Below are positions 41,001 to 60,086 of a DNA stretch of 64,000 bases, piece by piece. Location of the stretch: contig AZIN01000001.1 in NCBI GenBank assembly GCA_000511875.1, positions 751,332-815,331 on the forward strand, in the 5' to 3' direction. The notes below the pieces were generated by a model, which made no database searches, was not told the DNA's origin, and worked only from the letters and a program-made list of their open reading frames with translations. This DNA is from Gammaproteobacteria bacterium MOLA455 (lineage in GTDB: Bacteria > Pseudomonadota > Gammaproteobacteria > Pseudomonadales > Porticoccaceae). The position numbers and the translations under genes are program-made. Within the stretch, counting starts at the first letter, position 1, and every line of letters starts with the position of its first letter.

Positions 41001-44000
41001 CGAAAAACCAAGGGCCGGCTCATTGCCAGCAAGCATATTATCTACTGAGCGAAGAAGTTCGCCGTTGGTGCCGCGCAGCTCAAGAACAGGGTCTTCTAGT
41101 GAACCATTGCCACTTGCAGAGGCTTTTGCCCTAAAGACATAGTGTTCGCCAGCCTCCAATTTAATACCAAACCAGTCTTGATCATTTTTGGTCAATAAAT
41201 TACCGTTAAATGAGTCGCCTGGGTTGAGAATTACCTGAGTACTTAAATTATTGGGCACATCATCCGGTGGCAGGTTGCGCTGAGAAACCGAGACTTCGTA
41301 GGTGCCCATACCGCGATTATTATTTGACGATACCTCTATATAATAAGTACCCGCGTCTTCAGGGGCAAAATAGAATTTAGCATCTGTACCTGACCCGCCG
41401 TTGTTATCAAAATCAAGTAATTGGCCATTACTATTAAACACACGAATATAGGGGTCGACCAGCGTACCGGCAAAACCGGCAAAGCCAGAGGCCTCAAGTT
41501 GATATACTTTGCCCCCATCAAACTCCATTTTGAATACATCTTTATCACCCGGAATACCAATGTCACCGGCTGACATAACAGCATAATTTTCCCCAAGTAC
41601 CAGCGCTGTGGCTGTTTCATCAAGTACAGAGCCATGATCATCTTCTGGCGCCAGCGCTACATCAATGGTGTAGGCACCAATATCATATTTAAAGGCACTG
41701 CGAGCCTCTAAGAAATAGAGGCCATCATTATCTGGCGTAAAGTAAGCCCTGGCATCTAAAGTGCCATTAAAATCATCCGTCCGGTAAATAACATTACCCG
41801 AGGCATCGCGAATAATAAGCAATGGATCGCGTACAGGGTCCAGTCTCGCCCCATCACTAATATCGCCCTTTAGGTCAATCACATAGGTGGTATTGGCGCT
41901 AAGGCCTACCTGCAGCCAGTCGCTATCAGCAATATAAGAGATAAGGCCGCTAGCCTGCTCACCCAGTGTAACCAGACCTTCTGTGAGTATTGAATTTGCA
42001 TAATCATCGGTCAGCGACGAGCCACGCAAAATATAGGTGCCCCTTGAGGCATTGCCTGAGGCACCTGCATCAAGGTAGTACCAGCCACTATCCGGGGCGG
42101 CGAAGTAGATCTCGGCATCGGAACCACTGCCGCTGTTATCATCCTGCGTTAATAAACGACCGGTAACCGAACGCAAGCTCAGCTGAGGGTCGCTTAATGT
42201 TCCACCCAGCGATATGCCATCCATGGTAAAGCTGTAGGTCAATCCCTTATCCAGCCAAACCTTAAACCAATCATGATCGGTGAGCTGATTAATCTCACTT
42301 TCGGCTCTAAAAGTATTGGCGGCACTCCACTCAATACGCTCTGTGGTCGATATATTGCCGGCGATGGTATCAAGGCTACCCTGTGTCAGGGTCCATGAGC
42401 CCTTATTAATACTTGCCACATCGGTTACAGCAAGATAGTAGGTATCAGAGTCTGTTGGTCTAAATACAATCGCATCGTCGGTTCCGGCCACATCGTTGGC
42501 CTGATCCAGACCCGCCTCAATAACCCGCCCCTGGCTATCTAACAGCTGAAGCTTGGGATCAACTAAGGTGCCAGCATCCGATGACTGTCCCTGCAATCTA
42601 AACTCATATTTTGTGCCGGCAATAAGGTCTGTGCGAATCCAATCAGCATCATTGATATCACCGATATAGCCTCGAATGAGCCCCTCCTGAGGGTCGATTT
42701 CACCAAGGGTATCAACACCACCCGCATAGTCATCTAGGTAATTAAAGGTAAAGGCATAGTCTTCAATCGGATAATCATCATTAGCCTCTACTTTAGCCCT
42801 TACCAAAACCTGACCACCCTGATAGGCCTCAAAACCATCATTGGTATTAAACCCAGGCAACCACTTTTGATCAGCCGACATCCAATTGCTGAAACTATAA
42901 TTGATCCAACCATAGACCAGCGACTTAAATTGAATCTGCTGATTTGTAGCAACGTCCCAAAACTCAAACTGCCAGCCACTGCCATTTACTGTTGAAGCCT
43001 CAATCGCCAGAGGAGAATTTGGCGCAAAAGTTGCTGAAAAAAGATCGTAGTCATTGCGGTAATCAGATTTGGCCGACATCTGTTTGCCATACTCAATGGC
43101 AGTTAAGCTCGCAATAAGCTCGTCACCATTACCATTGGTCTGATAAAGATACGAATCTACCAGATCAGGCGCATCGTCTAACACCACGGTGGTGTCAGCA
43201 AACTGCAAGTTTAGAACATGACGAACTGTGTCATTACCATCAAGTAAAGTGCCTCGAGCATGCTCTACGAAGACCGCCTCGCCATCTCGGGTTCGGTCGT
43301 AGTCAGCCAAATTTCCAGAGAAAACTGCAGTATGAAGACTTCTTAGCGAATCATTACCGGCACCACCCTCAAAAGCTCCCTGCCCCTGGCCATCAAAATA
43401 GTCATCGCCCGCTGTTCCGGTGATAACACCGTCTGACTTGGTAAATACCGCGCCGGTACCGTCGAGGCTCCACCCGCTAAATTGCTCCTCGGTAAGAACA
43501 ATTCTTGTTTCGCCGTGATAGACATTTTCTACATTAGTTAATGTAACCTGCGTTAGATCAATAAAGCCTGTATTGCTGATATCAAAGGTATCTGAGCCCG
43601 TACCGCCCTCAATGCTGGCAACCAGATTGCCAGAGCGCTTATGCTGTATCCAATCATCTCCAGCACCCGCCGCCAGTTGATAATTAAGATCATCATAAAC
43701 CTCTATCCGGTCGGCATTATCACTGAGAGTGATATCAATAAATTTCCCATACAACTCCAACTTGTAGCGTTCTTCATCCTTAGTAACTAAAGGGTCATTA
43801 GATACATCGATACTACCAAAGGAGCCATTTAGGCTAATGGATTCAGCATAGGTTTGGCTTAAAACACTTTCGAAACTTAAATCTTCACCTGTACCTTTAA
43901 TGCTTAGCTTAACTGCACCCCACTCATTGCCATCACTCAATGATACTTCTTCAAAGCTATTCCAAACATCTGCACTTAACTGCACAGTATTTTGGTAGGC

Positions 44001-47000
44001 ATTACCTCCTGTGCCCAGGATGGAGAGCGCCTCTATACCGGAAAGGGATCCATCAACAATAGTATAAGTGCTGTAGTTGCTCTGATTAAAATCTACCTGC
44101 AGTAGATCATAATCCGATCCACCAAATACTTTATCGCCACCGATTGTTTGGCTATCCTGAGTAAATGCACTGGCACCGACAATAAGCGTATCGTCGCCAC
44201 TGCCTCCCATCAGGGTATCGGTACCCTTGCCACCAATCAGCGTATCATTGCCATCACCACCGGAAAGGTAATCAGCTCCCCGTCCACCCACCAGGGTATC
44301 TGCGCCACCAGAGCCGGTAATAATGTCGTCTTTTGCCGAGCCTACAACACCGGAAGCACCCACTAATTCTGAATCCATAGCGGGTAGATAAATAGCCGCA
44401 CCCTGCAGAAGCTGCAACTCACTGGGCATGGTAAATTCAGAGGACTCACCGGTTAACTGAACATTAACCCCTTGAATTTTTTTGAGTAATTTAAGCTGCT
44501 CAGCGGACATGGTGACCGTGCCAGCACCCGATAAAATTTCAATACCATTAATAGTGGCACCGGTTAGATCTTGGCCATCAGAAACGATTAAGGTATCTGT
44601 GCCCTCACCACCCACAAGCCGGTCGCTGACCACTGCCTTGCCGGAGACATTTAACTGGTCATCGCCAGTGCCGCCGAGTATTTCATCAACCCCCGAGCCG
44701 CCTATAAGGGTGTCATCACCAGCATTACCCTGCAAGATATCATTGCCAGCATTACCGGTTAATATATTATCTAGACTGTTGCCAATTAAACGGTCGTCCC
44801 CCGACGAGCCACTAAACCCGGCAAAGAGAGTCTCCTCATCCAGAGTGAAAGTGCCCGCATTTTCAAGGGACAATGTAAACTCTGTAGTGGCACCGGAAAT
44901 AACCTTAACCAAACTGCCAAATTCCGCCCACTGGCTCTCGCTCATGGCAAGGGACTGCGAGGACACCCGAATTTCTTCAAGATTAGTCAGGATTGCGCCC
45001 GATAAATCAACATCGGCTCCGCGAACAGTCAGCGCATCGGTGCCATCACCGCCATCGATACTGTCGAGGACAAGTGATTTGTTATCAATGGTAATACCAT
45101 CAGAACCCTCTCCAGCAGACACCACCATCAAACCACTGCCAAGGTTGATACTTTCCGAATTTGCAGAGCCATTGATGGTGTAGGCCATATCATCGGCAAT
45201 ACGCCAATTTTCAAGGCCAAGGGCATTTAGGTGCTCCATCTCAATGGTGCCGCCACCTACTATACCCACAGAGCGCAAACCGGAAACCGAGGACAGCCCA
45301 TCAAGCTGCGCTATTGTTAAAAGAAATTCAGAGGGGTGTGCCCAGAAGCGATTAGAGTCGTAACCAATAACCTCAAAAGTTTCGATATCGAGTAATTCAA
45401 GCTTAGTAAGATCCAGCTTCCAGGCAAAACTATCAGACTGATTCCATGTATTTCCACTCGGGTGGTAAAAATAACTTCCATTAAAGTCAAGCGTAACCTT
45501 ATCGCTACCTAGGCCACCATTATAGGTGCCTTCAAGGGTATAGGTTTTAGTCCCAGCATCAAATGATGAGAACGACGCTGACCATGACTGATACTGCTGA
45601 ATTTTCCAAATTAAACTATCATCACCGGCACCGGCATTGACCGTATCAACCCCCAAACCATTGCCTACTTGCTCGCTAGCGTTTAGATAGATTTGGTTAT
45701 TATCATCATTGCCGATCAGGGTATCAGACTGATTTGTGCCACGCACATCGATATTGCCACTGAGCTTACTGACATCGACAGTACCGCCCTCCGCTAGATT
45801 AGGATCCAATCGGAACTCGATATTTTTCGCCCCAACAAAACCCTTATCCAGTAATGCATCAACACTTAAACTAGAAGCACCATTGCGACCATCCAAAATT
45901 TCAACATTGCTTACTAGCAGATTATCCCAGCTCACACCGCCATCAATCTGTAATGTGTCAGTGCCTTCTCCCCCATCAATGGTGGCGGTAGGTGCATTGA
46001 CCATATTGGTAATTGATATAAGGTCATCACCTGCATCACCTTTGATAATATCATTACCTTCACCATCTCGAAGAATATCATCACCAGCACCACCACTCAG
46101 GGTATCATCGCCATCGCCACCGACAATTTCTTCATTGATGTCGCTGCCGGTAATAATATCGTTACCCTCACGAGCATCGATATATCCAACCTGCGCATCA
46201 CCCACCAAGGTGTCATCACTGGCAGTACCAAAGATAACCCGATCAACACTAATGCTATAGTTAATTAAATCGCCAAATTCAGCTTGATCTGAGTAGGCAT
46301 AACCATCGACCTTGATATCGGCTCGCTGGGCCATGGCCAGAAATTCAGACGAATCCCCCCAATACTCTGGGCTAACAAACCAAGAGGCACTTTGATTAGT
46401 ATTGACCTCAAATTTAATGATACTGTTTTCGGTTTCAAGGTTTTTAAAGCTTAATCGATCATCGGAACCCATGGCTAAGAACCGCAGCGTTAACCGACCA
46501 TTGGTATAATTTCCACTTTGCGGGGAAGTCTCAAAACGAATACGCAGTGCACTGTCTGTAGAAATATCAGCCGTAAACTTTTGTTGGAAGTAATCCTGAT
46601 CTAAATACCATAATTGTGAAGCAGCCGGTAGGGTTCCGGTTATGGATTCACCAATACTGTAAGCGTCAAAGTTAGCGCTATTAGACTCGGCATCTAACAC
46701 CAGATCCCTATCAGCAAAGCGCAGAATCTGTATATTTGCAAGCTGGTCAAAACCATCTCGATTATCGATCGAATCGCGAATCGATAACTTTAAATCTCGG
46801 TCATAGGTGGCAACAAAATTAACCGCGTAGTCTGCGTAGTTACCCGTATAGTGGGCTATATTGGCATCCCCCGCGCCACCGTCCAGACTATCATTGCCTA
46901 GGCCACCGGTAAGAACATCATTACCCGCGCCTCCAAGCAGCTGATCATCACGGTCCGAGCCTATAAGACTATCATTACCAACTCCGCCCTCAAGCCATTC

Positions 47001-47942
47001 ATAACTACTGCCGGCCTCTAGCGTATCATCCTGGTCGGTACCCTCCAGAACCCGTCTGATAACAAAGCTGTAACTCTTTGAGCGCATCGGTGCGTCATTG
47101 GACAGGCCGCCAGAAGTAAACCAAATATCCTGCAGACCTGAACCGCTAAGCGTTCTATCCCCAACTTGATTAGACCCTAGATAGACACCGCCATCCTCAA
47201 AATTTAGATAACTGCCCCACTCCGTAGAGCTGCCCGAGCTAATCTTGACCTTGGTACCCTCGGTGACCTCAAGGGTAAAATAATCTATATCACCGTAGAA
47301 GTTGGCCCGCCCATTGACCGATTCTCCGTAGTCTATCTGCCTATTGGTGACATCCGGTGCATTACTAAAATCATCAATTACAATACTACTCTCGACTGTA
47401 CCATCGGGAGCGACATAGCTGATGGCTTGTATATTAGTGAGCGTATCAGTGCCTTCATCGCCGCCATCGACCGGGTCATCATCAGCAACAACAGCATCGT
47501 TAAGGATTACCTGCCCAGAACTATTGACCGTCCAATAAAAGGCATCGGCGCTGCCCTGCACCTGAAAGGTGTTAAAACCCGATCCTCCATCAACAATATC
47601 ATCGCCCGCGCCACCGATCAGGGTCTGGTCGCCAGCACCACCTTCAAGAACATCAACAACTGACAAACTTATACTGTGTTGGCTGGATTGGCCGTTATTA
47701 TCAGAGGCAATAACGGTAAAGTCATAGAGGCTTTGGGTCTCATAGTCAGGACTTTCCGAGAGAAAAACCTCTCCGCTGCTGGCGTTTATGGACAGTTCTG
47801 CTGGACTATCAGCCGATAGCGTGTAGACAAGTTCAGTGGAACTGTCGTCATCATGTGCGGCGATGGCTGTGTATATAAGCCGGTTTTGACCTATATTTTC
47901 ATTCACTTTGGCTTGCGAATCAGAAGAAAAAACAATGGCCAT
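35085..47942 (-). CDS. Giant RTX protein with S8 subtilisin-like protease, P-domain and nine PPC modules
   Basis: This 4285-residue protein is a type I secretion substrate with no Sec signal. In order it has: a cadherin-like module (residues 1-100); RTX nonapeptide blocks (about 100-125, 300-358, 570-640, 1045-1100, 1198-1258); nine tandem pre-peptidase C-terminal (PPC) modules (about 1750-2850, each with a D-D/H-W start and a YYL-type strand); a subtilisin domain with Asp in VGVVDDGIDTSHPDL (about 2894), His in NHGTLVAGIIA (about 2937), oxyanion Asn in FSAGNSAG and Ser in GFSGTSASAPLVSGI (about 3114); a proprotein-convertase P-domain (about 3200-3337); cadherin/Ig-like modules (about 3500-3830); more RTX blocks (about 3834-4180); and a C-terminal secretion region. 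All catalytic residues are present. It is likely a calcium-activated furin-like cell-surface or secreted protease. Confidence 0.93.
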   Translation of the reverse strand: MAIVFSSDSQAKVNENIGQNRLIYTAIAAHDDDSSTELVYTLSADSPAELSINASSGEVFLSESPDYETQSLYDFTVIASDNNGQSSQHSISLSVVDVLEGGAGDQTLIGGAGDDIVDGGSGFNTFQVQGSADAFYWTVNSSGQVILNDAVVADDDPVDGGDEGTDTLTNIQAISYVAPDGTVESSIVIDDFSNAPDVTNRQIDYGESVNGRANFYGDIDYFTLEVTEGTKVKISSGSSTEWGSYLNFEDGGVYLGSNQVGDRTLSGSGLQDIWFTSGGLSNDAPMRSKSYSFVIRRVLEGTDQDDTLEAGSSYEWLEGGVGNDSLIGSDRDDQLLGGAGNDVLTGGLGNDSLDGGAGDANIAHYTGNYADYAVNFVATYDRDLKLSIRDSIDNRDGFDQLANIQILRFADRDLVLDAESNSANFDAYSIGESITGTLPAASQLWYLDQDYFQQKFTADISTDSALRIRFETSPQSGNYTNGRLTLRFLAMGSDDRLSFKNLETENSIIKFEVNTNQSASWFVSPEYWGDSSEFLAMAQRADIKVDGYAYSDQAEFGDLINYSISVDRVIFGTASDDTLVGDAQVGYIDAREGNDIITGSDINEEIVGGDGDDTLSGGAGDDILRDGEGNDIIKGDAGDDLISITNMVNAPTATIDGGEGTDTLQIDGGVSWDNLLVSNVEILDGRNGASSLSVDALLDKGFVGAKNIEFRLDPNLAEGGTVDVSKLSGNIDVRGTNQSDTLIGNDDNNQIYLNASEQVGNGLGVDTVNAGAGDDSLIWKIQQYQSWSASFSSFDAGTKTYTLEGTYNGGLGSDKVTLDFNGSYFYHPSGNTWNQSDSFAWKLDLTKLELLDIETFEVIGYDSNRFWAHPSEFLLTIAQLDGLSSVSGLRSVGIVGGGTIEMEHLNALGLENWRIADDMAYTINGSANSESINLGSGLMVVSAGEGSDGITIDNKSLVLDSIDGGDGTDALTVRGADVDLSGAILTNLEEIRVSSQSLAMSESQWAEFGSLVKVISGATTEFTLSLENAGTFTLDEETLFAGFSGSSGDDRLIGNSLDNILTGNAGNDILQGNAGDDTLIGGSGVDEILGGTGDDQLNVSGKAVVSDRLVGGEGTDTLIVSDGQDLTGATINGIEILSGAGTVTMSAEQLKLLKKIQGVNVQLTGESSEFTMPSELQLLQGAAIYLPAMDSELVGASGVVGSAKDDIITGSGGADTLVGGRGADYLSGGDGNDTLIGGKGTDTLMGGSGDDTLIVGASAFTQDSQTIGGDKVFGGSDYDLLQVDFNQSNYSTYTIVDGSLSGIEALSILGTGGNAYQNTVQLSADVWNSFEEVSLSDGNEWGAVKLSIKGTGEDLSFESVLSQTYAESISLNGSFGSIDVSNDPLVTKDEERYKLELYGKFIDITLSDNADRIEVYDDLNYQLAAGAGDDWIQHKRSGNLVASIEGGTGSDTFDISNTGFIDLTQVTLTNVENVYHGETRIVLTEEQFSGWSLDGTGAVFTKSDGVITGTAGDDYFDGQGQGAFEGGAGNDSLRSLHTAVFSGNLADYDRTRDGEAVFVEHARGTLLDGNDTVRHVLNLQFADTTVVLDDAPDLVDSYLYQTNGNGDELIASLTAIEYGKQMSAKSDYRNDYDLFSATFAPNSPLAIEASTVNGSGWQFEFWDVATNQQIQFKSLVYGWINYSFSNWMSADQKWLPGFNTNDGFEAYQGGQVLVRAKVEANDDYPIEDYAFTFNYLDDYAGGVDTLGEIDPQEGLIRGYIGDINDADWIRTDLIAGTKYEFRLQGQSSDAGTLVDPKLQLLDSQGRVIEAGLDQANDVAGTDDAIVFRPTDSDTYYLAVTDVASINKGSWTLTQGSLDTIAGNISTTERIEWSAANTFRAESEINQLTDHDWFKVWLDKGLTYSFTMDGISLGGTLSDPQLSLRSVTGRLLTQDDNSGSGSDAEIYFAAPDSGWYYLDAGASGNASRGTYILRGSSLTDDYANSILTEGLVTLGEQASGLISYIADSDWLQVGLSANTTYVIDLKGDISDGARLDPVRDPLLIIRDASGNVIYRTDDFNGTLDARAYFTPDNDGLYFLEARSAFKYDIGAYTIDVALAPEDDHGSVLDETATALVLGENYAVMSAGDIGIPGDKDVFKMEFDGGKVYQLEASGFAGFAGTLVDPYIRVFNSNGQLLDFDNNGGSGTDAKFYFAPEDAGTYYIEVSSNNNRGMGTYEVSVSQRNLPPDDVPNNLSTQVILNPGDSFNGNLLTKNDQDWFGIKLEAGEHYVFRAKASASGNGSLEDPVLELRGTNGELLRSVDNMLAGNEPALGFSVDDSGTYYLVVKAADGTVDTGTYTLITRAPDDHGNTQSDATVIALDETLTGGIQWNDGSFGVRAFDSIGLATDFDEDWFVFTGVAEQILSINVELADGSMLSRPMVEVIDEQGRVMAFGDGLETDNGLAVATFRVPTDGTYYARVIDGAGATGNYSVQLTTGDASDEDSEGPVSLSFSDNGAIKQSVTVATIGLSGDSDNFEAVLEEGHSYRIETVAVRDSSVAPLPSAALTMKWLAADESEATDISAGADLTNPSFFDSAEFTALTGGKLSLNVAPLEETQTGRYQLRIIDLGSQADDDLPNAVADFNESEHGVLAINENIEGKIDSAEDKDLIAVNLTQGNIYDFSVKGYFDGLGTLAEAELRLLNEVGQLVSVGSYDAVTGRTEFSVSVFSDGRYFLEISAEELPGNTGTYTLDTRLRGSDDNVIDDISADTQSGVVVGPGKPATGEIETAGDHDWISVSLEAGKVYVLDILADGDGSGGTLTDATLRLIDSNGDEVASDDNSGAGKDARLQVTPGTSGDYYLDISSRFGEVGTYTARVRELYSGVADPLVTAQWYLEEAGIFELDGQYTGAGITVGVVDDGIDTSHPDLQNNLNFSLAYDTQFDTSDGQPKYPYLVGPPDNHGTLVAGIIAAEANNETGIRGVAPDAELVSTRVKWSWDQMIQALSLQWQFDVSNNSWGAISPFSDNFNSTSLTFGWVALRKGVEDGRDGLGTNFVFSAGNSAGAGDNTNYHNFQNAREVITVGAANADGTMASFSTPGASVLVSSYGVGMITTDRHQPGWGEAKSSDYYGGFSGTSASAPLVSGIVAMMLEANPNLGYRDVQKILAYSTTHPDGQDWKTNGASDWNLGGLQFNDKAGFGLVDAYTAVQLARTWTDTNTSINEISASARKFGMVESIPDGDGSSYTMAFEVDSNLSVENVELGIDLRHQRLGDLIITLTSPNGTVSTLMDRATVNSERPFGLSGQDSGVPTHLLWDFSSVQFWGEQATGTWTISVADVRPEQIGTIQSLSLRIYGERQDGNDTYIFTDEGFANQTGSILEDEFGEDTINASPVRFDTYIDLYQGIIAANATTHGIASWTIVENAISGSGNDSLVGNSADNYLDAGAGNDVLQGSEGDDTLVGGAGRDTAYYVGLMAEYSVSWDPNTETVTVVDNKTSNGDDGTDILSGIERIVFSDGELNLAETTGNRPPVANASVFDGTVQLQSGMGIEYQLPDDAFTDADGEAASEMEIAVSDAAGGELPEWLSYDPATGTFSGVPPADFQGIIKLKVEAIDEYGVSTSDILTLQFGDNQAPTLENPKEVVVSEDQGLVSLEFTAPTDPEGGEVSIEITEIPSLGVLIDKSGNQVSVGAVFSADEFTELFYQTGEDANGDAGYVRYKASDEDGVVSESSAHIFVDAVNDAPRFSTKSSKLIIDYPEQTTVALDILEPVDPESVLTTVRVSELPQLGIISLDDQVVSIDQVLTFDQLNRLTFTLDENVNGPIGAITIQAVDDEGAATNWSLQLEVQGDAEFNSGTVGDDELYGSIADDILYGKGGNDTLVGNAGDDRLLGGLGNDSVIGGSGDDKLDGSAGNDYLDGGSGADFMTGGPGSDTYIVDSAGDVALEVISGGSGGKDVIVTSISLIAPENIENLQASAGDAINLTGNELDNVLLGNDENNVLQGRDGRDTLFGEAGEDTLDGGSGVDLLAGGLGDDTYNVSSKSDRVVEQVGQGVDHVIAASSYTLSSNVENLTLEEGGNFTAGGNSLDNHLIGNAGNNILAGGIGADILEGGLGDDIYVLSDSMDTIIDLGGEDTIRSNLDIVLINDIENADLVGIADTMAIGNGLANNLIGNMADNILDGAGGIDTLTGGEGADTFVIANNGEGVDADLITDFTSGEDLIVLDLASYGVSAEELGLLSSGLVSAESFVIGAGAKALDSNDHFIFDSAQGLLQFDVDGSGDEETMVIAHINLDEDSARITSGDVFVGI

Positions 47943-48325: not shown

Positions 48326-48335
48326 GTTGCTCCAG

Positions 48336-51300
48336 TTAGGCAATAAACGTAGGCGAGGCCAAGTGAAGATCAGTTAGATCAAATCCACTCTCCCCGGACA
48401 GGGTAATTGTGTAGGTCTCGATATCTACAACGCCCGCGGAAGTGTCGCTGTCTATAAACGCTGTAAGCGCGCTGGAACCTGAATCAAAGAAAGCCCCAAA
48501 GACATTATCCAGCGAATCATCGGCAGTGGAAATGAGCTGTGCAATATCTGCTGGAATATCGAGAATTTTAGATAGGTTCAGATCTTGGGCTTGCGTGCCA
48601 CTTTCTGCAATACCGGTATAACCCAACGCATTGGCTAACGTACTCAGCTCAATACTGTCGACACCGGCCTCAAAGTCAGAAATAGACATATCTGTTCCAG
48701 TGCCCGAGGTTAATGCAAAAATATCCGCGCCTGCACCCCCTGAAACCGTCGCAGACCCACCGAGCAACTCAAAAATCTCGGTCGCCTCCGTGCCTTCAAC
48801 AATTACCGCTTCACCTAGTACATAACTTGAATCAGACAGATCATCGTTGCCCACAATTACATCTTTAAGGGTAATGCTGGTTGTCGTTACTGTATCTTGG
48901 GCCTGATAGGTAAGCGCCAACAGTGAACCGTCCGATGCAACGGCAGGGAACCAGATTATGGATACACCAATTTGCCCTTCTACACCGACATTGGCTGCCG
49001 CAATGCCTGCAGAGGGATAGGATATTTGCGATTCCTCAATAACACCCAATTCAGACACATTGTAGACTAGCGTAAAGTCAATATTTTCCAACCCTGCCGC
49101 ATAGTCTCCAACCACGGATGGATCGATAGCAATAGAGATTACCGAATTGCCATCATCATCCTCAGAAAGGCTTGGCTTTAGTCCACCCCGAGAAATTTCA
49201 CCCGGGCCAGTGACAGACACCGACGAGTCTACAGACACTGAAACCTGCTGCTCGGTAGCAGCATTGACGCCATCGCTTGCCAGCAGGGTAAAGGTATAAC
49301 TCGCCTTAGTCGGATAATTGGTAACGCCAGTATTAAGTGACACAACACCGGTTACTGCATCAACCGAAAGGTTTTGCTCATCCCCCTCACCGGGTTTAAG
49401 CGAATAAGTTATACCCGCACTAATATCAGCACTATCATCTGCCGCCCCCAAATAGATTACTGACTCATAGCCCAGCACCGTTGAGGTACTTTGAGAGGTA
49501 ATAGTGGGCGCAATCTCATCCAAATCACCCACACTCAGAGTAACGGCCTGCTCACTGGCATTGCCCGCATCATCGGTTGCTACCACAGTAAAGCTGTAGC
49601 TGTTTTGAGCCTCTTCATCGGGGTTATCACTCAGGCTAACGGCACCACTGGTACCATCGATAGTTAAAGCTGTATCACTGCCGTCGCTAAGACTAAAGGT
49701 GACGCCGGCACTAATGTCCGCGCTGTCATCGGCTGTTGCCGTGTAGATCACTTGATCTGCACCACTGTTTTCATCTACTGACGTTGCTGTTGCGCCGGAG
49801 GTAATCATGGGCGCGACTTCGTCGAGGTTATTCACCGATAGAACTATCAATTGTTCACTGGTATTACCGGCTTCATCGGTTGCTGTTGCCGTGAAACTGT
49901 AGCTCTCTTTCGTTTCAAAATTTGGTATACCTGAAAGGGTTATCGCTCCAGTAGCACTATCAATACTTAGAGCATCATCACTACCTTCCTTCAGGTCATA
50001 GGTGATAACAGCACTGGCATCTCCTGCATCACTAGCCTCTACGGTGTAGACAACTTGATTTGCAGCAATATTTTCATCCACTACAGGTGTAGTAGAGGAA
50101 GTAATCAGTGGCGCGACATCGACTGTTAACGTTACAAGCAACTCACTGCTATTACCCGCTGCATCCTTGGCTACCAAGGTGAATTCATAGGCATCCTGTA
50201 CGTCTTTTTGCGGATTGTCAGCCAGGGTAACAACGCCGGTGGCCTCATCAACACTTAATGCTGAGTCACTGCCTTCTGCTAGGCTAAAGGTAACACCTTC
50301 ACTGATATCGGCACTGTCATCGGCAGTGGCGGTATAAACAACTTGACCGGCACCACTATCCTCTACTACCAGACCAACTGACAATGAGGTTATTGTGGGG
50401 GCAACCTCATCCACATCGCCCACACTCAGAGTAACGGCCTGCTCACTGGCATTGCCCGCATCATCGGTTGCTACCACAGTAAAGCTGTAGCTGTTTTGAG
50501 CCTCTTCATCGGGGTTATCACTCAGGCTAACGGCACCACTGGTACCATCGATAGTTAAAGCTGTATCACTGCCGTCGCTAAGACTAAAGGTGACGCCGGC
50601 ACTAATGTCCGCGCTGTCATCGGCTGTTGCCGTGTAGATCACTTGATCTGCACCACTGTTTTCTTCTACTGATGTCGCTGTTGCGCCGGAGGTAATACTC
50701 GGAGCGACTTCATCAACATCACCCACGCTCAGCGTAACAGACTGTTCGCTGACATTGCCCGCACCATCGGTTGCTACCACATTAAAACTGTAGCCGGCTT
50801 GAGTTTCGTGATCCGGATCATCACTGAGACTCACCGCGCCACTGGCAACATCGAGAGTTAAAGCTACATCACTGCCGTCGGCTAATGAATAGACAACATT
50901 AGAAGCATCAGTAGATGCTGCATTATAGACAACTTGATCAGAGCCACTATTTTCTTCTACTTGGGCATCGACCGTCGAGGTAAATACAGGCTCTACGGTG
51001 TCCACTAATAGCGTAATGGATGAGGCATTTTCAGAGATATTGCCGGCAATATCAGTAATACGCGCACTTAAGTTAGCTAAACCATCAATTAGATCAGCTG
51101 TAACAATTTCAATAGAGCCATTATCAAAATCATCAGAGCTTACGTAAGCACTACCGACAACACTAGCGCCATCATCTGTCAAAGACAGTATTTCGATGAG
51201 GTCACCAATTACCACTGCAGTACCGTCGAGTGAATCAACGTCAAACTTAACTTTAATCGATGGTGTAACATCGGCAGTAGAGCTATCACCCACAACACCA

Positions 51301-53708
51301 GTATCGCTGGCTGCAACCAGACTAACCTCGGGAGCGGAGGTGGCTAATGCATCCGTGGCGGCGGCCTGAACGGCAACAACCTCATCGATCGAAGTAGCAA
51401 CTTTTAACTCTTGAACTGCATTCTTCAGCTCTTCTAGAGCAGCAACGGACACCAGTGACGCACCCTGCGCATTGACAAGCAAGGCGGTTACCGTTTCAGC
51501 ATCCAAAGTCACATCCGTATCGGTGCTCGCACTATCTTCAATAAGAACCGCCAAGTTCTCCAATGCCGTTGATTGGGCCTCTGCGGCCGCTTCAGCATCT
51601 GTTGCCGATGACGTTGCCACTGCAAGCACTGTAGCAATCTGGGCCGTCACAATTCTATTACCCAATGCGGCGTCTGAGTCGTCCGACAAAGGATCATATT
51701 CAGATAGACTGTCACCCTCGGCCAGAGACAAACCCAGCGCAGACACAACCAGCGCCTCAGCCTCAGCAACAGTTTTTTCTCCCTCAGAGCTACTTTTTCG
51801 CATAACCTGAGCGACAAGCGTAGAAAGCGGGTTAACAACAGAGTATCCAGTGGGTGCAGTCAGTGAAAGCTCATTTATCGCACCCGTATCTGTGTTAATA
51901 CCACCGAGAATAATAACATCTGCAGAGAGTGCATCACCCTCGAGCAATACCTCACCACGACTGTTTGAGCTCACGCCCTGGATAAGCTCATCTGGATCTG
52001 CGATACCATCACCATCTATATCAACATAAACCTCGCCACCGCGGATATAACCATCAGAGACAACAATTTGTGAGAAGCTAGCAGCGGGATTACCTGCCAA
52101 ATCCTGCAATGTAGAGCCGGAATAAGACAGCTGTAACGACCCTTCCGTTAATTGAGACCCAATCGCTAGCGTGACAGAATCGTCTTCAATTGAGACTGCG
52201 CTAACATCTAATAGCACTCCCCCCTGCCTAAGAGTGAATGAAGAAACATTTAGAACTTGAGTTTGTGAAAGGCTCTCGCTGTAATTAATGGTAACCGTTT
52301 GATTGTCGACAGAACTCTCGATGGAGGTCACCGCTGGCGGAATTTCATCTACATCCTCAACCAATAGGGTTACCGGCTTCTCACTGACATTTCCTGCTCC
52401 ATCAGTTGCCACCACAGTGAAAGCATAGTTTTGTTGAGATTCGAAGTCGGGGTTACCCGCTAAAGTTACTGCACCTGAAGCACTATCAATTGTCAGCGCT
52501 GCATCACTTCCATCAGTTAAGCTGAAGACAACGCCGTCACTAATATCGGCGCTATCATCTGCGGTGGCAGTATAGATAACTTGATCAGCACCGCTATTTT
52601 CAACCACGGTTTCCTCATCTGACGATGTGATAGAAGGAGCCACTTCGTCCAAATTAGTTATGCTAAGCTCTACCGTTTGCTGATCCGTATTGCCTGCCAG
52701 ATCGGCCGCAACCACAGTAAAGGTATAGCTTTCTTTGGATTCGAAATCAGGGTCGTCAGTCAGTGTAACCTGACCGGAGGCACTATCGACATCAAAAGCA
52801 CTGTCGCTGCCATCATCCAAGCTATAGGTAACTGCACCATCATCAGCCGCACTGGCTGTAAAGACAACTTGGTTGGCACCACTGCTCTCCACGATGGAAA
52901 TATCATTTGAAGCTTCAAGAACCGGAGTTACAGTATCCAACTCAAGCACCAAAGTCGCGCTAACCTCTGATTTTTTATCGCCTTTTGTCTGCCTAGCGAC
53001 CACTGAGTAGCTTCCGTCTTGATCAAGCTCAAAGCTATTACCCTGACCAGAAACCCAAGTTGCGCCATTGTCTAGACTATATTCCCAGGTCGCTGAATCG
53101 ACTAAGTCACCGACTAAGACCACGCCAGAGTTGGTCACTCCATCGCCGTCAGAGCCATTGTCATTCGCTAGAGTCAAGATAGGCTTTGACGGCGGTTTAG
53201 ATGTGCCTCCAGACACTGCCAAACCAATTCCTACGGCACCTAAGGCCGACAATCCCAATGTTGAAAGGCTAAACCCACCTATGGTGGTATCTTGAGACTG
53301 AGCATCATCCAATGCCTCAGCAACCTTAGATTCAGCTTGAAAGCCCAGACCTAACTGATCTTGTGGCCCCTGCTCAGCTGCAACAGCTTCGTCTAAATCT
53401 GGATTTTCAATGGCATCATCAGCATCTAGCACTTGGTCGTCACTGGCTGGTTTTTCTTCGTCTTCGTCGTTTTTTTCAATTATTGATGTTTCTGCAATTT
53501 GAATCATTTCAGACGACTGAGACATATCACCCAGATGAGGCATCACATCAAATGAATTTTCACCATCTTGACCAGCAAAGGTAGGGGCGACTTGAGAGGA
53601 TGGGTCATTGGATTCTGACTGCTGCACAACGCCAGTATCAGTATTTGCGCCATCAGCACTGGATGTTGAGTCGACAAGAGGGGTAACATCTAAAGAATCT
53701 GTAGTCAT
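48336..53708 (-). CDS. Cadherin-repeat type I secreted adhesin with cohesin-like domain
   Basis: This 1790-residue acidic protein has no Sec signal. The N-terminal ~140 residues are acidic and disordered, followed by a hydrophobic Gly/Ser segment GGFSLSTLGLSALGAVGIGL (about 143-162) of the sort found in retained RTX adhesins. Then come two cadherin-like repeats, a Big-like domain, a VYVDIDGDGIADPDE module, a long Ala-rich helical region (about 640-800), and six more cadherin-like repeats (ENSGADQVIYTATADDSADI units, about 100 residues each). Residues about 1506-1640 look like a cohesin fold (ISIAIDPSVVG, ENIDFTLVYNVSELGVI, GSLLALTYQAQ). The end (about 1646-1790) has one RTX motif GGAGADIFAL and a type I secretion target region. 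Repeats 4 and 7 share an identical 245-bp DNA stretch. Confidence 0.88.
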   Translation of the reverse strand: MTTDSLDVTPLVDSTSSADGANTDTGVVQQSESNDPSSQVAPTFAGQDGENSFDVMPHLGDMSQSSEMIQIAETSIIEKNDEDEEKPASDDQVLDADDAIENPDLDEAVAAEQGPQDQLGLGFQAESKVAEALDDAQSQDTTIGGFSLSTLGLSALGAVGIGLAVSGGTSKPPSKPILTLANDNGSDGDGVTNSGVVLVGDLVDSATWEYSLDNGATWVSGQGNSFELDQDGSYSVVARQTKGDKKSEVSATLVLELDTVTPVLEASNDISIVESSGANQVVFTASAADDGAVTYSLDDGSDSAFDVDSASGQVTLTDDPDFESKESYTFTVVAADLAGNTDQQTVELSITNLDEVAPSITSSDEETVVENSGADQVIYTATADDSADISDGVVFSLTDGSDAALTIDSASGAVTLAGNPDFESQQNYAFTVVATDGAGNVSEKPVTLLVEDVDEIPPAVTSIESSVDNQTVTINYSESLSQTQVLNVSSFTLRQGGVLLDVSAVSIEDDSVTLAIGSQLTEGSLQLSYSGSTLQDLAGNPAASFSQIVVSDGYIRGGEVYVDIDGDGIADPDELIQGVSSNSRGEVLLEGDALSADVIILGGINTDTGAINELSLTAPTGYSVVNPLSTLVAQVMRKSSSEGEKTVAEAEALVVSALGLSLAEGDSLSEYDPLSDDSDAALGNRIVTAQIATVLAVATSSATDAEAAAEAQSTALENLAVLIEDSASTDTDVTLDAETVTALLVNAQGASLVSVAALEELKNAVQELKVATSIDEVVAVQAAATDALATSAPEVSLVAASDTGVVGDSSTADVTPSIKVKFDVDSLDGTAVVIGDLIEILSLTDDGASVVGSAYVSSDDFDNGSIEIVTADLIDGLANLSARITDIAGNISENASSITLLVDTVEPVFTSTVDAQVEENSGSDQVVYNAASTDASNVVYSLADGSDVALTLDVASGAVSLSDDPDHETQAGYSFNVVATDGAGNVSEQSVTLSVGDVDEVAPSITSGATATSVEENSGADQVIYTATADDSADISAGVTFSLSDGSDTALTIDGTSGAVSLSDNPDEEAQNSYSFTVVATDDAGNASEQAVTLSVGDVDEVAPTITSLSVGLVVEDSGAGQVVYTATADDSADISEGVTFSLAEGSDSALSVDEATGVVTLADNPQKDVQDAYEFTLVAKDAAGNSSELLVTLTVDVAPLITSSTTPVVDENIAANQVVYTVEASDAGDASAVITYDLKEGSDDALSIDSATGAITLSGIPNFETKESYSFTATATDEAGNTSEQLIVLSVNNLDEVAPMITSGATATSVDENSGADQVIYTATADDSADISAGVTFSLSDGSDTALTIDGTSGAVSLSDNPDEEAQNSYSFTVVATDDAGNASEQAVTLSVGDLDEIAPTITSQSTSTVLGYESVIYLGAADDSADISAGITYSLKPGEGDEQNLSVDAVTGVVSLNTGVTNYPTKASYTFTLLASDGVNAATEQQVSVSVDSSVSVTGPGEISRGGLKPSLSEDDDGNSVISIAIDPSVVGDYAAGLENIDFTLVYNVSELGVIEESQISYPSAGIAAANVGVEGQIGVSIIWFPAVASDGSLLALTYQAQDTVTTTSITLKDVIVGNDDLSDSSYVLGEAVIVEGTEATEIFELLGGSATVSGGAGADIFALTSGTGTDMSISDFEAGVDSIELSTLANALGYTGIAESGTQAQDLNLSKILDIPADIAQLISTADDSLDNVFGAFFDSGSSALTAFIDSDTSAGVVDIETYTITLSGESGFDLTDLHLASPTFIA
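49528..49772. repeat. 245-bp identical direct repeat, copy 1
   Basis: This stretch, encoding most of one cadherin-like repeat of the adhesin, is identical base for base with 50419-50663 as far as I can read. The first differences are A49773 versus T50664 and flanking bases. Confidence 0.92.
50419..50663. repeat. 245-bp identical direct repeat, copy 2
   Basis: Second copy, offset by 891 bp from the first, so exactly 297 codons apart. Recombination between them would remove three repeats in frame. Other cadherin repeats of the gene are much more diverged. Confidence 0.92.
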
Positions 53709-53906: not shown

Positions 53907-55109
53907 TTATCTTTCACCCATAGATTCAACCAGCGTCTTTGCAATTGGCTTTAACAGATAATTGAGCACTGTATTCTTACCTGTTTTAATCTCAATTGTG
54001 GTAGTCATACCAGGCAGTATTTGCAGGTCATCATTTGGCTTTCCTGTAAACTGCTTGCCTTGGGTTCGGACATGAATTCTGTAATACGGAATATTCCCCT
54101 GAGATGACTGCTCTTCCAAGGTGTCTGCGCTAATGTATGTCACCGTTCCGGTCAAATCACCATAAACTGTATAATCAAAAGCATCGACTTTTACTGCCGC
54201 TGATTGACCGAGGGAAACAAAACCAATATCAGCTGGAGATAGCTTTCCCTCGATAACAAAGTCGTCTTCGATAGGCACGATTTCCATAACGTCTTCGCCG
54301 GGACGAATTACGCCCCCCTCGGTGGTAACACGTATATTTTTTACAATCCCTCTTACCGGCGCATTTAGTGTTTTCTGACGCAACTGGCGCTGCCGCTGAA
54401 CTAAGGCCTGACCGACACTTTCAAGCTCTTCTTCCGTTTGATTGTATTCGGCCTGAGCATCTTGGAAATATTTATTCCGCGTATTAGAGATTTCTGCCAC
54501 CAGCTCAGCCTCTTGACGCTTTAGGCGAAGAATCTCTGTCCGACTGACATCCCCTTGCGCGACGAGAGGTTCGTTCATAGCAATCTCCTCTCTCACCAAG
54601 ATCAGAATGCCTTCAAGAGATGCTATCTCTTCGGACTGAGCAGCCTTGCGCTTTTCGTAAAGGGCTAGCTGACTCTTAACAAACTGGGGATATGCACTTG
54701 ACCCCTCCGGAAAGCGGGGCTCCAGCCCGAAGATCTCAGCACTGAGTCGCGCCATACCAGCACCCAATGCCGCAACTTTCGCCAAAGCCTCTTGATAGTC
54801 AGCCTGAGCATCGGTCTGATCAAAACGGGCTATAACCTGCCCTTTATTAACCTCATCACCGGCTCCAACAGGAAGCGCCTTAAGCACACCACCGTCTTTT
54901 GACTGAATGATTTGTATTTTTGAACTCGGAATGATTACACCTGGCGCCCGAGCCACCTGGTCAATTTCAGAAATGTAAGCCCACAATAAAAAAGTAAAAA
55001 AAGCGAATGCGGTAACCCTAAGCACCCATCGCGTCTGCTTGAGCTCAGCATCTAAAACATAGTCCGGTTGATCGGCGTCAGCTGATTTTAAAAACCAAAA
55101 GAGATTCAC
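53907..55109 (-). CDS. Type I secretion membrane fusion protein (HlyD/LapC family)
   Basis: This 400-residue inner-membrane adaptor of the type I secretion apparatus has one N-terminal membrane helix (WVLRVTAFAFFTFLLWAYIS, about 29-48), a biotinyl-lipoyl half (VGAGDEVNKGQVIARFDQTD), a long periplasmic coiled coil (about 100-240) and the second lipoyl half with APVRGIVKNIRVTTEGGVIR. The C-terminal beta-barrel ends with ILPGMTTTIEIKTGKNTVLN, typical of the PrtE/LapC group. Its start overlaps the ABC transporter stop by 4 bp. It should link the ABC protein to the TolC-like channel for export of the RTX and cadherin proteins downstream. Confidence 0.95.
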   Translation of the reverse strand: MNLFWFLKSADADQPDYVLDAELKQTRWVLRVTAFAFFTFLLWAYISEIDQVARAPGVIIPSSKIQIIQSKDGGVLKALPVGAGDEVNKGQVIARFDQTDAQADYQEALAKVAALGAGMARLSAEIFGLEPRFPEGSSAYPQFVKSQLALYEKRKAAQSEEIASLEGILILVREEIAMNEPLVAQGDVSRTEILRLKRQEAELVAEISNTRNKYFQDAQAEYNQTEEELESVGQALVQRQRQLRQKTLNAPVRGIVKNIRVTTEGGVIRPGEDVMEIVPIEDDFVIEGKLSPADIGFVSLGQSAAVKVDAFDYTVYGDLTGTVTYISADTLEEQSSQGNIPYYRIHVRTQGKQFTGKPNDDLQILPGMTTTIEIKTGKNTVLNYLLKPIAKTLVESMGER

Positions 55110-57265
55110 GTTACCTTCCTATTTGCTGCTTGCTTATTTAAATGTTCAATCACTTTTTCTTTTGGCCCATCTATCGCGATTTTGCCCGCCTCCATAACAA
55201 TAATTCTGTTAACGTGCTTTAGTGCTCCGATTTTATGCGTCGCCAACATGACCACAGCACTATCATCTACATCACTAAATAGATGATCCATAACACGCGC
55301 TTCCAACTGTGCATCCATAGAAGCTGTTGGCTCATCAAGTAACATCACCTGCGGTCTAGCAAGCAGCAATCGCGTCAAGCCAACTAACTGCCTTTGCCCT
55401 CCAGATAGCCCCTTACCTCCCTCTGAGATCATAATATCCAAACCCTTTGGGTGACTCTGAATCGCGCGATCAAGGCCCGTATTGACTGCCGCAGCCAAGA
55501 TTTGACTGTCGCTCAATACAGGCAACCCAAGTACCAAATTGTCTCTTAGTGTCCCGTTAAATAAACGTACTTCCTGGGGCAGATAGCCAATCTGCTCACG
55601 CAAAAACTCAACAGCGAGTTGCTGCATTTCCACGCCATCTAAAAACACCTGCCCTGACTGGGGGCGATAGAGCCCGGACAGCAGCTTGATCAAAGTTGAT
55701 TTCCCTGATCCAACTGAGCCCAAAACTGCTATTTTATCTCCTGGGTTTAATTGTAACTTGCCTACCTCTACAGTCGGGGCGTTCTCCTCATAGGCAAACG
55801 TCAAATCTGCAACCTTTATTTGCCCAACACAGCGGTCGGGAACCACCTGCCTATCAACACCCTGATCACCCGGCATCGCCATAATGCCATCGAGAACATC
55901 TAGAGCTATTTTAGCGTGCTTCCACTGTACAACTAGATTGGGGATTTGCGCTAATGGCGTTAGCGCCCTACCGGAGATGATCGAGCAGGCAATTAACCCG
56001 CCCATGGTTAAATTACCTGAAGAAATAGCATAGGCTCCTGCGGCAATAATGCCGACATAACTTAGCTGCTGAATGGATTGAGCTGAACTAGTTGAGATGG
56101 TAGTGAGCATTCTGGACTTGAGCTCAGTGTCACTTATTTTTAGCGTTAAATCGCGCCAACGGTCTTTAATTTTCCACTCTGCAGAAGCAGCCTTTACAGA
56201 CTCAATACCATCAATTGCCTCGATGAGAAGGCCGTTCTTTTTATTCGACTCTTCCATATGTTCAGCGGTATAACGCTCTATAGGCCCCTTCATAGCCAAG
56301 CCAATTAACAGGCCTAACGGTATCACCGCAAGCGGCACCATCGCTATCGGACCAGCCAATAAGAAAATAATAAAGATAAAAAATAAAGCAAAGGGGGCAT
56401 CAGCAAGAATAAATAACGTGGTGGAGGTCATAAAATTCCGTACAGACTCAAAGTGCCTTATTTGAGCGGCAAATGTGCCTACGGTGCGTGGGCGAGATTC
56501 TGCCCGAATGTCTAACGCCTTACCAAAAAAGACACTCGACAACTCAACATCGATCACCTTGCTAGCTCGATCAACCATATGAGCCCGCACTAACTTCATT
56601 AAAAACTCAAAAAATATTGCCAATAGAACGCCAATAGTTAAGACCCAAAGCGTACTAAATCCTTTTGTGGGCACTACTCGATCATATACCTGCATTGTGT
56701 AGAGCGCCGACATTAAGCCGAATATACTCAGCATAAAGGTGCCAAACACAGCTTCTAAAAACACTTTTCTTCGCTTTCGAATAGCGTAAATAAACCAGTC
56801 TTTGGCGCTGAAGTTATTTTTCTCGGCTTGCGACTTGGACCCGTCACTCACTGAAAGCAGCAGACAAACGCCATTGGACAGTTCTTCCAAGGACATCGAG
56901 TTAGTCGAAAAGTCTTCTCTCTCTGACAGATAACCGTGGTTCTGAATACCACGGATGATGCATGCGTCTGACCCATCTTTTTGCAACCAGAGAACCGGAA
57001 GGTCAGACTTACTCACGCTCTGCGTGTTTACAATTTTAGCCTCGCCATCCGGAAAACGTAGCTTCCAAAGCTCTATGGCCCGCTCAACCACATCAAGACG
57101 CGCCAATTCAACGCCATCGGTATTTTTTTCTGCGTAAGTAAAGCGATGAACCGGCACCGCAACACCAGCGAGCCCAGCGATTCTTACCAAAAGACTTACA
57201 AGAGGGCCGGGGGGCATAGTGCCTGCACTCATATCATCAGGAGATGAAGACTTAATCTTATTCAT
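55106..57265 (-). CDS. Type I secretion ABC transporter/permease (LapB-like, C39-like N-terminus)
   Basis: This 719-residue protein has three parts. The N-terminal ~150 residues form a C39-peptidase-like domain without the catalytic Cys (at the expected position it reads LVSLLVRIAGLAGV), as in RTX exporters where it only binds substrate. Six transmembrane helices (about 165-440) follow, including FGTFMLSIFGLMSALYTMQV. The ATPase domain (about 475-710) has Walker A AVLGSVGSGKSTLIKLL, signature KGLSGGQRQLVGLTRLLL, Walker B PQVMLLDEPTASMD and the H-loop LATHKIG. It powers one-step export of unfolded RTX substrates. It overlaps the TolC-like gene by 8 bp and the HlyD-like gene by 4 bp. Confidence 0.95.
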   Translation of the reverse strand: MNKIKSSSPDDMSAGTMPPGPLVSLLVRIAGLAGVAVPVHRFTYAEKNTDGVELARLDVVERAIELWKLRFPDGEAKIVNTQSVSKSDLPVLWLQKDGSDACIIRGIQNHGYLSEREDFSTNSMSLEELSNGVCLLLSVSDGSKSQAEKNNFSAKDWFIYAIRKRRKVFLEAVFGTFMLSIFGLMSALYTMQVYDRVVPTKGFSTLWVLTIGVLLAIFFEFLMKLVRAHMVDRASKVIDVELSSVFFGKALDIRAESRPRTVGTFAAQIRHFESVRNFMTSTTLFILADAPFALFFIFIIFLLAGPIAMVPLAVIPLGLLIGLAMKGPIERYTAEHMEESNKKNGLLIEAIDGIESVKAASAEWKIKDRWRDLTLKISDTELKSRMLTTISTSSAQSIQQLSYVGIIAAGAYAISSGNLTMGGLIACSIISGRALTPLAQIPNLVVQWKHAKIALDVLDGIMAMPGDQGVDRQVVPDRCVGQIKVADLTFAYEENAPTVEVGKLQLNPGDKIAVLGSVGSGKSTLIKLLSGLYRPQSGQVFLDGVEMQQLAVEFLREQIGYLPQEVRLFNGTLRDNLVLGLPVLSDSQILAAAVNTGLDRAIQSHPKGLDIMISEGGKGLSGGQRQLVGLTRLLLARPQVMLLDEPTASMDAQLEARVMDHLFSDVDDSAVVMLATHKIGALKHVNRIIVMEAGKIAIDGPKEKVIEHLNKQAANRKVT

Positions 57266-58568
57266 TGGAATCCGAAAGTGTATTTTTATTTAAAGCACCG
57301 CTTAGAAGCCGTATTTGATAGGATGCTGTTAACTCAATCGCTTCATAATCAGCAAGGGTATGCTGAGCCTGAACAACCTCACGCTGGGCATTTAAAACAT
57401 CCAACCACGACTTTCTTCCCACCGTATACTGGCGCAAATAGGAGCTCACTACCTCAGTAGTTGCCGAAACAAGCTGGCGTGAGGGGGATAACTGCAAACG
57501 GGCAGACTCATATTCACGCCACGCAATTTGAACCTTTCTTCTAAGCTCGCGTCTTGACGCCGCCAGCGTCTTCATAGCCGCGCGCACACGCGCCTTGCTG
57601 GCTGAAATAGATGACCGAGATGCCAGACCTGCTCCAGGCTGGAACTCTAAGGCCACAAACACCTGCTCGCGCTCCTGAGCAAACAAGAGCTCACCAAATC
57701 TTCGTTCATATCCGAGAGAAACCTGCGGATAGAGCGCAGAAGAGGCTATCCTAGCATTGGCATTTAACCCCGCTATCTCTGACTGTATAGCTCTTAACCT
57801 AGGGGAAAAGGCTATTGCAGCATTTTCAATATCGGAAAGTGGGACCAAACTTGGACTAAAGCGCACCGGGGCCGAGACATTATTTACCGCCCGGCCAATT
57901 AACTGCTCAAGCTCAGACCTAGCAACCTCTTTGGCACTAGTATTTTGCAATACCTGAGACCGCGCGAACGCCAACCGAGCTTTTGCCAGCATTGCATCAA
58001 CTTCAGGACTTATTGCCGCCTTGACACGACGATCAATGATATCGAACAGCCGCTTATGCTCTGTCACATTATCAACAGATATTGTCAGCTTCGAATTGGC
58101 GCGGTGAAACTCAATAAATGCTCTGGCAGAATCCTCGAGTAAAATCTGCTCCACTTCCACGATATTGGCTACGGCATTATCACGACGCGACTCTGCTAAC
58201 TCTATATTTCCCGAAAGCCTCCCTCCAGTCCACAGTGGCTGAGAAAGTGAAAATGAATCCTGGCTGCCACTATCGAAAAGGCCCCGAGCGCTGTAACTCG
58301 GCGTTGGGAAAGCCGACCAACGCGCAGCACTTAAGTCTCCAAGCGCGGCCTGGTAGTCACCCTCGCGAGAAGCAACTAATGGGTGGTACTTGACCGCCAA
58401 AGTCATTGCATCGATCAACGTCAATGGCTCTTCAAATACAATATCGTCCGCCAAAGATGGAGGCACCATGGAGACAAAAAGCACCAAGAAAATTGATAGA
58501 GACTTAAAGAGGTGTAAGTGAATGCCAAGCTTCTGAGTCTTAAGCATTTTAAAGGAATTTTTAGTCAT
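57258..58568 (-). CDS. TolC-family outer-membrane channel of the type I system (LapE-like)
   Basis: This 436-residue outer-membrane efflux protein has a signal peptide (hydrophobic core SLSIFLVLFVSMVPPSLA, about 24-41) and two TolC-like repeats of coiled-coil and barrel strands. Landmarks are LTLIDAMTLAVKYHPLVASR, SFSLSQPLWTGGRLSGNIEL and YTVGRKSWLDVLNAQREVVQ, the conserved C-terminal repeat motif. It provides the outer-membrane conduit for the ABC and HlyD-type proteins encoded immediately downstream in the same operon. The start at 58568 gives a slightly long n-region; the ATG at residue 8 is an alternative. Confidence 0.93.
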   Translation of the reverse strand: MTKNSFKMLKTQKLGIHLHLFKSLSIFLVLFVSMVPPSLADDIVFEEPLTLIDAMTLAVKYHPLVASREGDYQAALGDLSAARWSAFPTPSYSARGLFDSGSQDSFSLSQPLWTGGRLSGNIELAESRRDNAVANIVEVEQILLEDSARAFIEFHRANSKLTISVDNVTEHKRLFDIIDRRVKAAISPEVDAMLAKARLAFARSQVLQNTSAKEVARSELEQLIGRAVNNVSAPVRFSPSLVPLSDIENAAIAFSPRLRAIQSEIAGLNANARIASSALYPQVSLGYERRFGELLFAQEREQVFVALEFQPGAGLASRSSISASKARVRAAMKTLAASRRELRRKVQIAWREYESARLQLSPSRQLVSATTEVVSSYLRQYTVGRKSWLDVLNAQREVVQAQHTLADYEAIELTASYQIRLLSGALNKNTLSDSNE

Positions 58569-60066: not shown

Positions 60067-60086
60067 AATGAAATCCTCTGGATCTA

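Follow-up and report, generated by a model that had tools for sequence, protein, structure and literature searches.

The Locus and Its Genes

The 64,000 nucleotides analysed here, referred to as the window, originate from Gammaproteobacteria bacterium MOLA455, a member of the Porticoccaceae (assembly GCA_000511875.1, contig AZIN01000001.1, positions 751,332 to 815,331 of the forward strand). Between 58568 and 26432 the window contains a run of minus-strand genes, all in one direction, which encode a type I secretion system, a cadherin-repeat adhesin with a cohesin-like module and two dockerin proteins, the candidates for a cohesin-dockerin pair at the cell surface. The gene order is efflux protein, ATP-binding cassette (ABC) transporter, HlyD-type fusion protein, cadherin adhesin of 1790 amino acids (aa) and a 106-aa open reading frame (ORF). 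These are followed by an RTX protein of 4285 aa, which contains a subtilase domain, then by a protein of 657 aa, a predicted lipoprotein of 1839 aa and an ORF of 239 aa. The genome of 2.6 Mb is assembled in four contigs, with a completeness of 97.8%.

The TolC-like outer-membrane efflux protein of the type I system (436 aa, 57258..58568) was identified by PF02321 OEP (E 5.2e-40), the type I ABC transporter (719 aa, 55106..57265) by PF00005 and PF00664, and the HlyD-type membrane fusion protein (400 aa, 53907..55109) by PF13437 (E 4.4e-17). By these Pfam matches, all three components are encoded next to the adhesin, as in type I secreted adhesins of the RTX class. The RTX protein (35085..47942, minus strand, like the secretion genes) combines a subtilase with a P-domain, PPC repeats and one cadherin repeat (PF00353, PF00082 with E 1.2e-45, PF01483, PF04151 and PF00028).

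The Cohesin-Like Module of the Adhesin

The adhesin (48336..53708, minus strand) matches PF00028 in eight stretches (E 2.1e-56), has no Sec signal by eye and ends in ...SPTFIA. A preliminary description, made from the sequence alone, had read a cohesin fold into its residues from about 1506 to 1640 and had proposed structure prediction for residues 1500 to 1645. When the module at residues 1495-1639 (48792..49226, minus strand), designated W, was searched alone, Cohesin PF00963 was its sole Pfam match (16.9 bits, E 0.0075), and a Cohesin match was obtained in none of ten control slices taken elsewhere in the adhesin. The predicted model of W shows a cohesin-like beta-sandwich: cohesins ranked first in the fold searches, and the nearest solved folds include 2jh2, 2w1n, 2vo8 and 2xdh. 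At the level of the predicted fold, the earlier reading was thus borne out.

The score of W lies below the curated PF00963 cut-off of 24.1 bits, so that the module does not qualify as a cohesin by sequence and is called cohesin-like here. The W sequence gave no match to solved structures at E<=10, and none of the five proteins scanned against NCBIfam matched a model for cohesins, dockerins or adhesin retention modules at E<=0.01. The possibility that W is a further cadherin repeat was rejected, since Pfam gave no Cadherin match for the module. Elsewhere in the genome no second place matched the Pfam Cohesin model at E<=1, which leaves W as the only candidate cohesin detected there. With one cohesin-like module and no match to a carbohydrate-binding module (CBM), the adhesin differs from a cellulosome scaffoldin, which has several cohesins and a CBM.

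The C-terminal tail following W (residues 1640-1790, 48339..48791, minus strand) is a probable type I secretion signal, as judged from the tails of four relatives, which are 54-75% identical to it. An alignment with this tail gave two loci in a scan of named genomes, and a scan of viral contigs gave no match.

Two cadherin repeat stretches of the adhesin (49495-49820 and 50386-50711) share 96% identity over 326 bases, which may be a sign of recent repeat exchange. The end of the adhesin gene is overlapped by the 106-aa ORF (48023-48343), which has no Pfam match at E<=0.01.

The Dockerin Proteins and the X-Doc Module

The 657-aa protein (33037..35010, minus strand) starts with MAFFQ, ends in ...VIIA and has no Sec signal by eye; it is probably a substrate of the type I system. 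The 1839-aa protein (27151..32670, minus strand) is predicted to be a lipoprotein on the basis of an LAGC lipobox (by eye), in agreement with the preliminary description. Four relatives of the lipoprotein (P0044, P0045, P0047 and P0048) also have a lipobox by eye; P0045 is 99% identical, and P0047 is unaligned over its first 126 residues.

Both proteins carry the same module, designated X-Doc, at residues 441-623 of the 657-aa protein (33142..33690) and near the N-terminus of the lipoprotein at residues 132-314 (31729..32277), both on the minus strand. A local hidden Markov model (HMM) scores them with 4.1e-72 and 2.4e-71, respectively, both sequences having been part of the model that scores them. 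The shared block extends over 31636..32296 and 33048..33709 (minus strand), and its two copies are 87% identical in DNA by blastn. Within X-Doc, PF00404 identifies a dockerin repeat pair, in the 657-aa protein at residues 496-549 (33364..33525, minus strand) with 24.0 bits, above the cut-off of 22.9, and in the lipoprotein at residues 190-240 with 22.5 bits for the whole protein, just below the cut-off, and 29.5 bits in the genome search. Each of the two dockerins contains DVNKDGRVNSADAL. Both dockerin-repeat helices are present; the second calcium loop is canonical and the first is degenerate. The dockerins noted earlier on both neighbours were recovered.

For the X-Doc of the 657-aa protein, an AlphaFold2 (AF2) model was obtained with a pTM of 0.81. 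In the X-Doc fold search, the matches listed include no dockerins and cover only the surrounding CnaB/transthyretin-like sandwich. X-Doc seems to be a dockerin sitting inside a CnaB-like domain, a layout of which no mention was found in the available parts of the related literature compared.

The conservation of X-Doc was determined for 77 modules, obtained from 102 by filtering at 80% identity. It is highest in both dockerin repeats (0.57 and 0.87 bits, compared to 1.28 for the linker and 2.64 and 1.94 for the flanking beta parts), and in these 77 modules the two repeats are alike, reading SADALAALKIAV and SADALAILKMAV. This conservation and mutual likeness is as a binding face would show.

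Conservation of the Locus in Relatives

The order of the locus is kept in G058, which represents another genus of the family (L029/L030, on the same contig as L040). Here, genes for an X-Doc protein with a lamin-tail domain, the efflux, ABC and fusion proteins, a W-bearing adhesin, an RTX protease and a further X-Doc protein follow each other. Over the aligned parts, identities to the window proteins are 75% for the ABC transporter, 76% for the fusion protein, 55% for the efflux protein and 50% for the adhesin; the protease shows 67% identity across residues 770-4285 and 51% across 96-768, and the X-Doc protein is 53% identical to the 657-aa protein. The linkage to type I secretion, noted earlier for the window, is supported.

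The W module of this adhesin (L030, residues 1309-1472) is 24-25% identical to residues 1495-1639 of the window adhesin, compared to 50% for the adhesins over their aligned parts. The cohesin-like part diverges faster than the rest of the adhesin, as a changing binding specificity might bring about.

In MED584 (L039), a metagenome-assembled genome of the Porticoccaceae, secretion genes and an adhesin were identified (ABC 79%, fusion 73% and efflux 55% identical over aligned parts), with the end of a lamin-tail protein upstream (58% identity over 432 residues); the contig is cut at both ends, which places the X-Doc part outside the view. A 6146-base contig of G075 begins inside the protease gene and continues into an X-Doc protein. 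The X-Doc proteins of the window, G058 and G075 all start with MAFFQ and are without a Sec signal by eye (3/3), which fits export by a type I system. The C-terminal ...IA is found in the window and G058 proteins and is lacking in that of G075.

Beside the secretion operon, 58638-58903 is 81% identical to 60400-60665 and represents a degenerate repeat that covers the final part of a gene of the Fic/DOC family (60189-60566) together with sequence upstream of that gene. Toxin-antitoxin-like genes at about 59580-60070 (by eye) and an integrase (62411-63274) suggest a mobile or decayed stretch.

Distribution of W, X-Doc and a Second Cohesin-Like Type

The distribution of both modules was determined in 143 genomes of relatives and 390 of the order, with profile A3 for W (E<=0.001) and profile A6 for X-Doc (E<=1e-10). 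W was identified in five of the relatives (the MOLA455 genome, G035, G036, G043 and G058) and in 2/390 of the order. X-Doc was likewise found in five relatives, with three places in the MOLA455 genome, one in G035, 11 in G058, 11 in G075 and 12 in G082, a few of them partial, and in 4/390 of the order, one of which (G222) is weak and has an internal stop. Both modules are shared by three genomes in the first set and two in the second (hypergeometric 2e-4 and 8e-5). Because these counts come from related genomes in overlapping sets that include the query genome, this co-occurrence is suggestive only. PF00404 was found in 13/143 relatives and 36/390 genomes of the order, and overlaps with W in three of the relatives (p 0.005).

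A second cohesin-like type, designated T2, exceeds the Pfam Cohesin cut-off in the sister genomes G035 and G036, at four places that are also recognised by the T2 model. In G445, from another family of the order, one protein joins T2 and X-Doc. W and T2 are not claimed as close relatives, since the profile-profile comparison was not significant (Prob 0.3 and 0.8). The W of G058 is not reached by the Pfam Cohesin model at E<=1; G154 has a place above the Cohesin cut-off which matches neither the W nor the T2 model.

Related adhesins can contain several cohesin-like modules plus X-Doc in a single chain. A search with P0012 (residues 1240-1705), which scored only the 7983 candidates sharing most words, returned 216 proteins at E<=0.001, the listing being confined to the best 120 of these. 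In a set of 131 proteins, four from the window and the rest from sequence searches, X-Doc occurs together with W or T2 in 18 and with W in 16, several of the latter holding 3-6 T2 modules, while 88 proteins, the two of the window included, contain X-Doc only; these counts are biased, as the search query contained X-Doc and T2.

Proteins Carrying X-Doc

X-Doc is found on many RTX proteins. Besides the two window proteins, the MOLA455 genome encodes it on an esterase domain protein with leucine-rich repeats. Domain scans covered this third protein, 9/11 X-Doc proteins in G058, 2/12 in G082 and 1/11 in G075. In G058, X-Doc is joined to glycoside hydrolase family 3 (GH3) with CotH and CBM6, to sulfatase and YHYH with RCC1 repeats, to thermolysin (M4), to imelysin (M75), to CBM4_9 with a beta helix and cadherins, to DUF1800 with CHRD, to RCC1 repeats, to the lamin-tail protein and to the relative of the 657-aa protein. 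The partners are GH17 and sulfatase with YHYH in G082, and CotH with CBM6 in G075. The GH3, GH17, sulfatase and CBM6 proteins (L052, L035, L054 and L060) suggest a dockerin-tagged polysaccharide-degrading set in G058 and G082.

The cluster had been described as free of glycoside hydrolases. This holds for the 20 window ORFs scanned, in which neither a glycoside hydrolase nor a CBM was detected, and no dockerin-bearing glycoside hydrolase, as known for cellulosomes, is among the three X-Doc places of the MOLA455 genome. However, it does not hold for the system as a whole, given the GH3, GH17, sulfatase, peptidase and CBM proteins with X-Doc in relatives. Because X-Doc is present on these hydrolase-type proteins, a dock for several enzymes describes the idea better than an adhesin with a structural role alone.

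Proposed Assembly and Alternative Explanations

The locus is explained best, with a probability of roughly 0.57, as a non-cellulosomal cohesin-dockerin surface assembly of Porticoccaceae served by type I secretion, in which W would bind X-Doc. The substrates exported by the secretion system would be the adhesin and the RTX-subtilase, probably together with the 657-aa protein. W, located just before the C-terminal tail, would capture X-Doc proteins via their calcium-dependent dockerin, and the lipoprotein, bound by its lipid to the outer membrane and presumably exposed at the surface, would hold the adhesin on the cell. Cargo would be provided by the 657-aa protein and by the X-Doc esterase, whose gene lies outside the locus, and in relatives would include glucan, sulfate-ester and peptide hydrolases. 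This explanation is supported by G058, where secretion genes, adhesin, protease and X-Doc protein are arranged as in the window, and by G075 with its protease and X-Doc protein.

Several observations weigh against it. G075 and G082 contain 11-12 X-Doc places without a detected W, X-Doc is missing from the W-bearing genomes G036 and G043, and the C-terminal end of the X-Doc relative in G075 is unmatched. The absence of W from G075 is discounted, since the contig starts inside the protease gene; for G082 no explanation was found.

A wider version is advanced with considerably more reserve. In it, Porticoccaceae and relatives would deliver cohesin scaffolds by type I secretion, in the form of cadherin adhesins that bear between one and several cohesin-like modules, and dock X-Doc hydrolases from across the genome (for beta-glucan, sulfate-esters and peptides) together with lipoprotein anchors, giving a cellulosome-like surface machine in ocean bacteria, whose two-module chains would self-assemble into fibres.

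The same four genomes are accommodated by an alternative in which both modules are functional, but the X-Doc of the locus binds another cohesin, for example of the T2 type, and W binds, for example, a second dockerin-like module. Two G036 proteins with W or T2 (L032, 5163-6680 and 6752-8449) end in another repeat, by eye of the DxDGNGxxxALTDGLLLLRYLFGL kind, which looks like a second dockerin class and could provide such a partner. However, W is the sole candidate that the Cohesin model detects (E<=1) in the MOLA455 genome, and G058 likewise has W, so that this exchange of partners is considered unlikely.

X-Doc could also be a structural insert, stabilised by calcium, that binds no cohesin and sits in a CnaB-like beta domain of secreted proteins, those of the RTX class included, with W as one more Ig-like stalk or ligand-binding domain. 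Yet conservation is much stronger in the dockerin repeats than in the beta parts requiring stabilisation, and W and X-Doc occur together in few genomes and in a conserved locus, no search having been aimed at cohesin partners of X-Doc proteins more widely; this explanation is equally improbable. A pair acting between cells, in which adhesins bearing both kinds of module link neighbouring cells to each other or form fibres by polymerisation, with the lipoprotein X-Doc as receptor on the other cell, would suit the cadherin repeats of adhesin type and the 16/131 chains with both modules, several of them with 3-6 T2, but is the least probable, the modules of the window being on separate proteins.

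Comparison to Known Systems

Type I adhesins of the LapA/BapA type are large repeat adhesins encoded beside their own secretion system. The window adhesin differs from these by its cohesin-like module near the C-terminus and by the lack of a LapG-type protease: PF06035 was matched in none of the seven genomes searched, the MOLA455 genome included (E<=0.001), and release or retention as in the LapA subtype was dropped for this reason.

The best-known examples of cohesin-dockerin assembly come from anaerobic bacteria that degrade plant fibre. The clostridial cellulosome shares with the system described here a cohesin-like fold, a type I dockerin match and, in relatives, dockerins on hydrolase-type proteins, some with CBMs. 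In contrast, the window encodes a single cohesin-like module on a cadherin adhesin beside type I secretion in a Gram-negative host, without a scaffoldin and, in the 20 ORFs scanned, without a CBM. The nearest solved folds include 2jh2, 2w1n, 2vo8 and 2xdh, non-cellulosomal cohesins from glycoside hydrolases of C. perfringens and from A. fulgidus, but by their titles they originate from glycoside hydrolases or an archaeon and not from a type I adhesin.

Other non-cellulosomal pairs have been published, so that the use of this pair, announced in the preliminary description as undescribed, may be so only for its delivery by type I secretion. For freshwater Planctomycetes, the planctosome was proposed as a hypothetical complex in which cohesins and dockerins assemble peptidases and a lamin-tail domain serves as anchor (PMC6461901); the X-Doc lamin-tail protein upstream of the G058 secretion genes is comparable, whereas the planctosome proteins have signal peptides and the available part of that paper names no type I secretion system. 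Candidatus Stygibacter, of the Cloacimonadota, is described in the available text as having a cellulosome-like complex of dockerin enzymes and a cohesin protein (PMC8542988), and thus represents such a combination in a bacterium outside the clostridia; unlike the window adhesin, its multi-cohesin, scaffoldin-like protein has CBMs and attaches by a C-terminal domain. Dockerin and cohesin proteins are also mentioned for ANME archaea in the accessible part of one report (PMC9012536), and a review of adhesion and secretion, in its available part, mentions cohesin-dockerin for the cellulosome (PMC3796261). In the open-licence literature, represented mostly by the starts of abstracts, no published description of a type I secreted cohesin adhesin was recognised.

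A further host is Saccharophagus degradans, also a marine gammaproteobacterium, for which two dockerin-like and six cohesin-like ORFs were reported and their binding was left open; the available part of that report states no link to a type I adhesin (PMC2386152). If the assembly proposed here is correct, with the cohesin on a type I secreted adhesin and the dockerin on surface and hydrolase-type proteins, it would enable marine gammaproteobacteria to keep enzymes on their surface, and the question raised in 2008 by the S. degradans ORFs, as far as the available text presents it, would become directly testable in a related group.
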